A DNA stretch of 64,000 nucleotides, taken from Chloroflexota bacterium (GTDB taxonomy: Bacteria > Chloroflexota > Anaerolineae > Anaerolineales > UBA11579). The position numbers and the translations under genes were made by a program. Positions 3,549 through 40,246 of this stretch are shown here, one piece after another (position 1 is the stretch's first letter; each line of letters opens with the position of its first letter). The DNA is taken from assembly GCA_016191875.1 (NCBI GenBank), contig JACPVG010000009.1, forward strand, positions 20,647-84,646, read 5' to 3'. Under the pieces are notes generated by a model. That model was not told where the DNA came from. It ran no database searches and worked only from the letters and a program-made list of their open reading frames with translations.

Positions 3549-5312
3549 CTAAGGCTCGGCCGGCGCGCCCTCTTCGGGCGGGGCCTCGCCTTCCGGGAGC
3601 GCGTCGTCCGGCAACCGCTCTTCGAGCGGCTGATCGGGGATGCCGCCAGGGAACAGGTCGGCCCGCCCCCAGACGAGCACGGTGGTGGAAACCGCCGGGG
3701 CCTGGCGGAAAAGCAGCCATGAGATCAGGTTGGGCGGCAGGGCGCCCTCCCAGGCCGGCTGCCAGCCGACGGCGAACGACTGGCCGCGGTAGCCCAGGGC
3801 GGTCAGCAGGTCGATGGCGGCCGGGTCGGTCACCAGGGCCGGGCGGCTCTCGGCGGCCGACACCTGGCTGGCGAAGACCAGGTTGGGCATGTCGCGCAGT
3901 TCCCAGGCGACGGCGTCTGAACCGGTCTGCACGGTCACATCCAGCGAGGTGCGCTCGCCCAGCCGGAACTCGGAGAGGTCGCCGACGGTGGCGGCCGCCA
4001 GATCAGCCAGGCCCGGCGCGGGGCCGCTCCACCAGAGTTCCGCTGCGGTGGTCTCGCGGCGGAAGGCGGCGCTGAACAGGCCGCTGATGGTGAAGAACAG
4101 CAGGAACAGGCTCACGCCCCACAGCGCGCCGCGCCCGGCTTCGGCGAAACTCCAGCCGATGCCCACCAGGAGCGTGGAGATGACCGCCAGGGCCAGCACG
4201 ACGATGGAGAGCGACAGCCCCCGCCGAATCTCTTCCAGGTTTTCGGGCGAGATGAAGCCAAGCGAAGCCAGGCTGAACCATATATAGGTGAAGAAGACGA
4301 GCAACAGGGCGGCTTCAAGCCACACTACCTGGCGGTCTTCTTCAGGGCCGGGGCGCAGGGCAGGCGCAAGCGCGCCCGCCGCCAGCCCCCACAGCGGCAC
4401 CAGCGCCCAGACCAGGTCGGCCGCCTGGCGGGCGGGAGAAAGCAACGCCAGGGCCAGGGCCGCCAGCAGCCACCACCCCAGGAAACGCGAGTGGGCAGCG
4501 GGCTGGCGCACGGCCCGGGCCAGGCCGATGACCCCGAACAGCAGGGCAAACGGCTGGTAGGCCGCCAGCGCAAAAAACAGCCGCCCGGCCGGGACGCCCG
4601 AAGGCGTGACCCAGCCCAGGAAATAAGCCGGCAGGCTGGCCCCGAAGGCGCCCAACCCGGCGGGGACCTGCAGGAACAGCGTCCCGGCCAGCAGCAGCGT
4701 ACCGCCGCCGAACAGTGCCGCCCGGCGCAGGTCGCCGACCGGCAGGCGCAGCGGCTGGCGGCGCAGGGCGGCATCCGCAAGGGCCGCCAGGAGCAGCACC
4801 ACCAGTCCGTGCCAGAGGGCCGGGCCGGAGAGCAGCCCCAGCGCCAGCAGCACGCCAGCCACCGCCGGGGCGTTCAACAGCCAGGCCGAGAAACCCAGGG
4901 TCAGGAACGCCAGGGCGGGCATCGGGCCGCCGGCCTGGCGCGACACCGCCACCAGGCCGGGGTCGAGCGCCAGCCCGAAGGCCAGCGCCAGGGCCGGGAT
5001 GCGCCCGAGGCGTTCGCGCCAGAGGAAGGGAGCAGCCACCAGCGCCGCCCCGGCCAGCGCCGGGAGCAGGCGCGCCAGCTGGTCGCCGCTGCCCAGCCAG
5101 CGGAACAGGAAACCGGTCAGAATGACATAGAGCGGCTGCGGGCCGAATTCGGCGGCCTGGCCGTCCGCCAGGCGGTGAGCCTGCAGGGCCCAGTGGGCCT
5201 CGTTCTCGGCCAGCGGAATGGCATCCAGCGCGCCCAGGCGCAGGGCCAGCGCCAGCCCGAAGGCCAGCAGGTGCAGGGCGTGTTCGAAGGTGAAGGTCCG
5301 GTTGGCGCTCAT
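3549..5312 (-). CDS. Polytopic membrane glycosyltransferase, GT-C/PMT-like
   Basis: 587 residues, mostly hydrophobic, with about 10-12 predicted membrane segments. An acidic motif, AENEAHW near residues 35-41, lies in the first loop where GT-C enzymes (ArnT/PMT type) carry their catalytic Asp/Glu. Such enzymes use lipid-phosphate-linked sugars on the outer membrane face. After the last membrane segment there is a soluble region of about 140 residues and a Pro/Glu-rich tail ending EEGAPAEP. The stop is TAG. Downstream of the two DUF2298 genes and 21 bases from cmk. Substrate unknown. A glycan polymerase or other GT-C role is possible. Confidence 0.7.
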   Translation of the reverse strand: MSANRTFTFEHALHLLAFGLALALRLGALDAIPLAENEAHWALQAHRLADGQAAEFGPQPLYVILTGFLFRWLGSGDQLARLLPALAGAALVAAPFLWRERLGRIPALALAFGLALDPGLVAVSRQAGGPMPALAFLTLGFSAWLLNAPAVAGVLLALGLLSGPALWHGLVVLLLAALADAALRRQPLRLPVGDLRRAALFGGGTLLLAGTLFLQVPAGLGAFGASLPAYFLGWVTPSGVPAGRLFFALAAYQPFALLFGVIGLARAVRQPAAHSRFLGWWLLAALALALLSPARQAADLVWALVPLWGLAAGALAPALRPGPEEDRQVVWLEAALLLVFFTYIWFSLASLGFISPENLEEIRRGLSLSIVVLALAVISTLLVGIGWSFAEAGRGALWGVSLFLLFFTISGLFSAAFRRETTAAELWWSGPAPGLADLAAATVGDLSEFRLGERTSLDVTVQTGSDAVAWELRDMPNLVFASQVSAAESRPALVTDPAAIDLLTALGYRGQSFAVGWQPAWEGALPPNLISWLLFRQAPAVSTTVLVWGRADLFPGGIPDQPLEERLPDDALPEGEAPPEEGAPAEP

Positions 5313-39872: not shown

Positions 39873-40174
39873 TAAAACAAACGTCCCTGATGAAATCAGG
39901 GACGAAAGGGGCGCTTCCGCGGTACCACCCTGGTTGCCGGTGCGAGGACCGGCCAACTCAGTTACGCGTTATCGGGCGTTCCCGCCGCTCACTAGTGTTG
40001 TTTCGCGAGCAGGGTCGTGCCCCGGTTACCGGGGCGGGCAGGCGAGTTCGGCCTTGTGCGGTCTGCGGACGCCTGCCGGGCTTGCACCCTTGGCGAACGC
40101 CTCCGGCGTTCGCTTAGAATTGGGCTTTGCCCAACTCCGCCCGGCTCTCTGGCAGATGGCCTACTACTCCTGCC
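39873..40174 (-). promoter_or_regulatory. Leucine T-box riboswitch controlling leuS
   Basis: All key parts are visible on the minus strand. Stem I: GGCAGG, AGTAGTA, GGCC on the 5' side opposite GGCC, GAACTCG, CCTGCC on the 3' side (40174 to 40037). This gives the AGTA/GAA loop E motif and the specifier CTC (leucine) at 40044-40046. The AGAGAG bulge is at 40145-40150 and the apical GGGTGCAA at 40082-40089. The T-box sequence GGGTGGTACCGCG is at 39918-39930. The terminator is GTCCCTGAT/ATCAGGGAC (39883-39903) with a T-rich tail to 39873. Uncharged tRNA-Leu should favour the antiterminator and leuS expression. Two extra hairpins are inserted in the apical loop. Confidence 0.95.
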
Positions 40175-40246
40175 GACCAGTTGCTATTCGTTTGTACTGA
40201 GTTGCCTGCGGCAACTGCGAGTCAAATTGCCTTCGGCTATTTGACC
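40091..40246. repeat. Cluster of short hairpins, three with a GCCTNCGGC core
   Basis: Three hairpins share the core GCCTNCGGC: GCGAACGCC/GGCGTTCGC (40093-40113), AGTTGCC/GGCAACT (about 40200-40216) and GTCAAATTGCC/GGCTATTTGAC (about 40221-40245). On the plus strand each core would fold as a UNCG-type tetraloop. A fourth hairpin with a TTT loop (GAATTGGGC/GCCCAACTC) is at 40117-40137. The first and fourth lie inside the T-box Stem I apex. The segment between tRNA-Ala and the riboswitch holds no gene. Confidence 0.65.

Follow-up and report, generated by a model that had tools for sequence, protein, structure and literature searches.

In heterocystous cyanobacteria, palindromic repeats are found in RNase P RNA. 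The leuS leader described here is like that case in that a repeat occupies a peripheral loop of a functional RNA, but here a riboswitch serves as host, with the repeat at its ligand-contacting apex. With the long Stem I T-boxes (Rfam RF00230) the leader shares a specifier, a double T-loop apex, a distal helix, a UGGN bulge and an antiterminator/terminator switch; it departs from them in an apical linker of 52 nt with two hairpins instead of 5 to 9 nt, and in a score below the curated Rfam cut-off, a property common to the leaders of the sister species (G001) and the congener (G002) of the genome under study (G000). As described in the accessible text of PMC7583486 and PMC4919913, the T-loops AGAGA and UGxRA of a T-box interlock and stack laterally against the tRNA elbow to form the elbow-docking platform, and disruption of this platform lowers affinity by up to 60-fold. 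The accessible part of the 2020 review also records insertions in every T-box domain, with structure and function unknown (PMC7583486). A literature search covering few subscription journals returned no account of a T-box apex containing a dispersed repeat, and the words "insertion" and "apical" are absent from the accessible part of the TBDB paper (PMC7778990).

The repeat itself has counterparts among small dispersed elements. Like REPs and their dimers (GTAG and CGTC families; accessible text of PMC3733652), it consists of short palindromes with compensatory arms in dispersed copies; among REPs dimers likewise occur, and loops are short in many families. In contrast to REPs, its copies have no GTAG or CGTC tag at either end (copies inspected by eye), a search of G000 (∼91% complete) for a cognate RAYT transposase found no REP-flanked RAYT gene, and one copy lies inside a regulatory RNA. 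Because neither tag nor transposase was found, we do not class the repeat as a REP. It is also comparable to MITEs and to the pneumococcal BOX and SPRITE elements (accessible text of PMC10969869) in being a small, non-coding, dispersed element that folds in RNA. However, its ends mirror each other over at most two bases, without the matching terminal inverted repeats of a MITE, and no target duplication is visible at the one filled/empty site compared, that of the leuS leaders.

Anatomy of the leuS leader

The window, by which we mean the whole stretch of 64,000 nucleotides analyzed, derives from an uncultured bacterium of Anaerolineales type and contains leuS and its leader on the minus strand (Table 1). 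Read 5' to 3' on that strand, the order is tRNA-Ala(CGC) (40484-40411), tRNA-Ala(GGC) (40321-40248), a double hairpin (∼40245-40199) and Stem I, the base strand of which runs GGCAGG (40174-40169), AGTAGTA (40168-40162) and GGCC (40161-40158). The first-pass annotation had called a complete riboswitch with specifier CTC, and we found every element it named at the position given. Its account of a GCCGGGC/GCCCGGC helix around 57 nt with two strong hairpins was reproduced in both positions and pairing: the 7-bp distal helix encloses the 52-nt linker plus TGCAA (40086-40082). It had also held that the apical motif survives the insert, and both the AGAGA and the TGCAA T-loops are indeed in place; the hairpins do not substitute for a missing apex structure, as the standard motif is present.

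Table 1. Coordinates of the leuS gene, its T-box leader and associated repeats in the window
Feature	Position	Strand	Basis
leuS, leucyl-tRNA synthetase, 822 aa	37181..39649	(-)	ORF; relatives at E ≤ 1e-50 in 57/61 genomes searched, own genome counted
leuS T-box leader, Stem I to terminator	39874..40174	(-)	RF00230 for the part after Stem I; Stem I by comparison with relatives
T-loop 1, AGAGA (AG bulge)	40146..40150	(-)	sequence; consensus AGAGA in accessible text of PMC7583486
Distal helix, 5' strand GCCGGGC	40139..40145	(-)	sequence and folding
Distal helix, 3' strand GCCCGGC	40075..40081	(-)	sequence and folding
T-loop 2, TGCAA (UGxRA)	40082..40086	(-)	sequence; consensus in accessible text of PMC7583486
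Hairpin B, GAGTTGGGC AAA GCCCAATTC	40117..40137	(-)	9 pairs, one G-U
Hairpin A, GCGAACGCC GGA GGCGTTCGC	40093..40113	(-)	9 Watson-Crick pairs, 3-nt loop
Specifier CTC (Leu)	40044..40046	(-)	within GAACTC, position as in relatives
T-box AGGGTGGTACCGCGG	39917..39931	(-)	sequence
T-box bulge UGGU, complementary to ACCA	39924..39927	(-)	sequence
Intrinsic terminator hairpin and T-run	39874..39904	(-)	sequence, folding
47-bp dispersed double-hairpin repeat	40092..40138	(+), reverse orientation relative to T-box RNA	R1 match; same arrangement elsewhere in genome
Second double hairpin, repeat-like in general form, between tRNA-Ala and Stem I	40199..40245	(-)	sequence

The genome encodes a tRNA-Leu(GAG) with the 3' end ...CGCACCA, which fits both the CTC specifier and the UGGU bulge of the leader. 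The AGGG and GUCCC strands of the antiterminator are paired in the Rfam alignment. With a leucine specifier and its cognate tRNA, both T-loops and the distal helix, the UGGU bulge and a competing terminator all present, the leader is a T-box by all anatomical features tested and a predicted leucine-tRNA sensor.

Folding assigns both apical hairpins a pairing probability of 0.98 to 1.0, in the Stem I fragment (40190-40020) and in the full leader. Compared with their shuffles, the fragment lies 3.75 SD lower in folding energy (none of 200 equals it) and the full leader 4.2 SD lower (none of 100). The distal helix is predicted less firmly, with a pairing probability of 0.78 to 0.79 for the fragment that drops to 0.53 when the full leader is folded. 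For the TCTGC/GCAGA helix, which lies below the AG bulge, the value is 0.13 to 0.14 in Stem I of G000. Among 37 parsed leuS Stem I sequences, 29 pair the whole 4-bp helix next to the specifier loop, using 13 different sequence combinations, and 31 contain an exact complement of 5 nt or more for the helix below the AG bulge (a count without a chance control); the Stem I core is thus supported by comparison. The Rfam match covers the part after Stem I alone (40029-39895; 45.5 bits, E = 7e-9) and falls short of the curated cut-off of 93 bits. We considered whether the insert hides Stem I from Rfam and rejected this, because the hairpin-free G002 leader scores as low (50.0 bits); G001 is likewise below the cut-off. 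With E up to 1, RF00230 matches G000 at seven places, the leuS leader counted.

A side hairpin on the 3' strand of the Stem I hinge, placed between the distal arm and the specifier loop, is frequent by eye in leuS T-boxes of the order (examples are L009, L010, L021, L026, L033 and L035); it is present in G001 and G002 and absent in G000.

A dispersed repeat in the Stem I apex

The first-pass annotation described two extra hairpins at the apex. The enlargement holds, but the hairpins are not two independent parts of the riboswitch: together they make up a single copy of a double-hairpin repeat that is dispersed in the genome. R1, a covariance model trained on seven other G000 copies with the T-box copy excluded, locates the latter at 40092-40140 (55.7 bits, E = 1.3e-13), and no further non-overlapping match in the window rises above 10.6 bits. 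R1 was searched in 61 genomes with 99 candidates scored per genome and strict filters, and the copy numbers are accordingly lower bounds. At least eight further full-length copies were detected in G000, scoring 60 to 77.5 bits; seven of these had served to train R1. With the T-box copy counted, at least nine reach 55 bits or more. Three pairs of copies have similar flanks, so the nine represent about six contexts rather than nine independent jumps. Copies above 28 bits occur in six of the 61 genomes, all of one family (G000, G001, G002, G004, G006 and G008), with best scores of 39 to 66 bits in the five other than G000; eight more genomes, three from other families, gave matches of 23 to 27 bits at best, with E up to 0.01.

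Pattern searches point the same way. The hairpin A pattern GCGAACGCCNNNGGCGTTCGC, allowing up to three mismatches, has 13 sites in G000 against six for the reversed control, and at three of the 13 a second hairpin follows after 2 to 3 nt in T-box order, the gap in the T-box being 3 nt. The hairpin B pattern GAGTTGGN{3,9}CCAACTC has nine other sites in G000, the T-box copy not among them, and none in the reversed control. In the alignment of seven copies, 97.0% of cells pair, a value as high in 0 of 500 shuffles, and three hairpin A pairs change on both sides, a number as high in 42 of 500. The T-box copy has a single mismatch to a degenerate 47-letter consensus that was written after the copies were seen, and shares 34 to 38 of 47 letters with five single copies. 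At this one position the T-box sense strand forms a G-U, and the RNA thus stays paired. As the same pair of hairpins recurs elsewhere with its order unchanged and its spacing nearly so, and as R1 matches the T-box copy, comparison of the copies identifies the two apical hairpins as one dispersed element of the same genome.

The copies at L151, L153, L126 and L191 are nested within other dispersed palindromes of the GTCACCCTGAGCGAA...GCGAAGGGTC type. Such nesting had suggested that the repeat targets hairpin tips; this idea was discarded, as the 25-nt flanks of 25 copies (T-box included) had a mean duplex energy of -10.0 kcal/mol versus -11.2 kcal/mol when swapped. The sole Y1_Tnp match in G000 (L160 280-1887; C15:67928-68284) lies at the end of a 535-aa ORF; by eye, the start of this ORF, with its Y1 transposase-like domain, resembles a response regulator.

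In the double hairpin at 40199..40245, R1 gave no match at E up to 1; its counterparts in G001 and G002 score 25.6 and 19.5 bits. All three congeners have a double hairpin between tRNA-Ala(GGC) and Stem I (L009 970-1020 and L038 2929-2980, besides that in the window), with stem sequences greatly diverged and pairing kept.

Age of the insertion and enlarged apices in the order

The apical linker, measured from distal helix to T-loop 2, is 5 to 9 nt long in 40 of 43 readable leuS T-boxes, which agrees with the earlier statement that the spacer is usually short. The three exceptions are G000 (52 nt), G001 (27 nt) and G045, from another family (21 nt). Of 57 genomes in which leuS was matched, all but seven contributed to a set of 50 upstream regions, and these supplied the 43 T-boxes (38 parsed, five by eye); not among the 43 are L016, L131, L132, L135 and L136, which have no T-box motif, and L022 and L138, which are cut by contig ends. 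The comparison with relatives that the first-pass annotation had proposed thus places the long apex as a non-ancestral feature, with 40 of 43 leaders lacking it. The other six T-boxes of G000 have ordinary apices of 5 to 10 nt (L001 and L004 by eye). At 80 named loci, 48 upstream regions were examined, of which 19 contain a T-box motif and none an enlarged apex by eye; among the 19, a 50-nt value for L059 spans two AGCGAG motifs, and L078 is without an apex motif.

The aligned leaders share one insertion point: G002 reads GGGAGG-AATGG, G001 GGGTGG-[one hairpin]-AGGAG and G000 GGGCGG-[two hairpins]-AAGGG. The G002 leader is identical to that of JANJTX010000169.1 (Anaerolineales bacterium RX2_metabat.bin.65; L038). 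LeuS identity is 91.7% between G000 and G001, and 87.1 and 86.5% between these and G002, and the higher mutual value makes G000 and G001 sisters. The G001 hairpin is similar to hairpin A and sits at the same point; taken alone against R1 it scores 9.6 bits (E = 0.34, not significant), and its homology rests on the alignment at that point. Judged from these alignments, the insertion is young and confined to one genus, and the simplest history would be a single insertion predating the divergence of G000 and G001, with hairpin B lost afterwards in G001.

To survey enlarged apices, the pattern CAGMGAGNNGGG N{14,44} TGNRAGCC was run against 400 genomes of the order, giving 48 matches in 46 genomes, all of which were checked for a downstream T-box motif (30 plus 17 loci, and the G045 match, L147). 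Nine genomes have true T-boxes with an enlarged apex (G001, G045, G144, G378, G362, G071, G124, G136 and G148); eight of these are additional to the G000/G001 pair and fall in four other families. G047, G154 and G156 were rejected as ordinary apices matched long, and G110 as a T-box-like string without a distal helix. With N{45,75}, all 36 matches (35 genomes) were checked and G000 is the sole true long apex, G017 and G019 again being ordinary apices matched long. For a denominator, N{3,13} gave 78 unchecked matches in 58 of 101 genomes of the order (reversed control, two); the same 101 contain three enlarged apices (G000, G045 and G071). The distal helix and TGNRA are present in ten of ten enlarged-apex genomes, a retention that is partly built in, and a count that is a lower bound, because the pattern demands AGMGAG, an NNGGG helix start and TGNRAGCC.

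Hairpins are predicted in the enlarged apices of G001, G045, G071, G136, G148 and G144, and weakly in that of G362; the G124 apex string equals that of G148, and the G378 hairpin is found in the centroid fold and absent from the minimum-energy fold. Specifiers read by eye are for leucine in G045, G144, G378 and G362, the last upstream of a LeuS-like start, and the T-boxes of G071, G124, G136 and G148 precede a TrpE-like start (by eye, in three of the four). The G144 hairpin has one other match in its genome at up to two mismatches, against six for the reversed control. It is therefore not dispersed there, and for G144 the notion that apical hairpins elsewhere are dispersed repeats too was dropped; hairpins of differing origin evidently enter this spot. 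The apical linker looks like a tolerant spot for inserts.

Function of the leader and alternative accounts

We consider it probable that the tip of this T-box Stem I holds a 47-bp dispersed repeat of the same genome as an outward-pointing appendage, on a riboswitch that likely works. The repeat occupies the apical linker, with the distal helix on one side and the first base of T-loop 2 on the other, outside both pentanucleotides. In comparison with the aligned G001 and G002 leaders, nothing is missing from the T-loops, the pairing of the distal helix, the specifier, the T-box bulge or the terminator. The repeat would have entered the common ancestor of G000 and G001 and folded on itself into two short hairpins, leaving the double T-loop on the tRNA elbow undisturbed, and uncharged tRNA-Leu(GAG) would still trigger antitermination. 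It may have been retained because few sites in Stem I besides the apical linker would accept self-folding cargo without harm. Since two self-closing hairpins need not touch the platform, the leader is predicted most likely still to sense tRNA-Leu(GAG). The intact T-loops and distal helix, together with other hairpins at the same point in other families (from a survey limited to T-boxes with the motif), point to tolerance. The expectation of the first-pass annotation that an insertion at the apex should disturb or reshape recognition has so far gained no support.

The same evidence bears on whether recognition was lost or reshaped. A large insert at the recognition apex, in a leader in which the distal helix is weakly predicted at full length, could have disabled elbow docking and left a decaying leader or a plain attenuator; with all of the elements just listed preserved in comparison with both congeners, we regard this as very unlikely. 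An adaptive insert, whose extra arms would touch the tRNA, perhaps at the long variable arm of tRNA-Leu, or adjust how fast the RNA folds, is rather unlikely. That four families (G000/G001, G045, G144 and G378/G362) have enlarged apices in leucine-specifier T-boxes would be in keeping with it, as would the lone consensus departure, which leaves a G-U and keeps the RNA paired, and the suggestion in the accessible text of a review that unexplained T-box insertions may touch other tRNA surfaces (PMC7583486). However, the insert is a generic repeat, the added hairpins vary in sequence among lineages and are absent from 40 of 43 leuS T-boxes, while by eye the hairpin of G071, G124, G136 and G148 sits in a T-box before a TrpE-like start. 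The tRNA read by such T-boxes has no long variable arm. We similarly think it unlikely that the repeat has become a new riboswitch arm, with the apical linker an expansion-segment site that repeatedly gains self-folding inserts and the double hairpin a second grip on tRNA-Leu in this genus.

Two other origins for the hairpins were weighed against insertion of a dispersed element. The three congeners have exactly zero (G002), one (G001) and two (G000) hairpins at one point, as expected had two separate hairpins been gained stepwise. Yet both hairpins co-occur at nearly the same spacing at other G000 loci, and insertion of the pair, with hairpin B later lost from G001, calls for no coincidence; with the pair found elsewhere as a unit, stepwise gain was dropped as the leading reading and now seems improbable. 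Template switching at replication has been proposed as an origin of new RNA stems (accessible text of PMC8794818), and formation in place would suit the near-perfect arms and 3-nt loops. The same double hairpin elsewhere in G000 disfavors it at the leuS locus, where we judge it highly improbable; it may hold for the G144 apical hairpin, which has no other close copy in its genome. Insertion of the dispersed repeat, by comparison, gives this T-box insertion a traceable origin, a young age, an empty-site relative and a half-sized intermediate. The congeners form a natural series for asking how much cargo the tRNA-elbow platform tolerates, and whether riboswitches grow by accretion like ribosomal RNA.

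Other leuS leaders depart from the common form in different ways. The Stem I of G008 (L011) is shortened, spanning 77 nt in the excerpt compared as against at least 97 nt in the others, with both T-loops kept. A tRNA-Ala(GGC) gene often lies just upstream of the leuS T-box in Anaerolineales relatives. In Halonatronum saccharophilum (NZ_KI912091.1; L078 3450-3870), a tRNA-Ala(GGC) gene (3636-3711) lies inside the leuS T-box leader itself, flanked on one side by a very short Stem I that lacks the double T-loop apex and on the other by the antiterminator.
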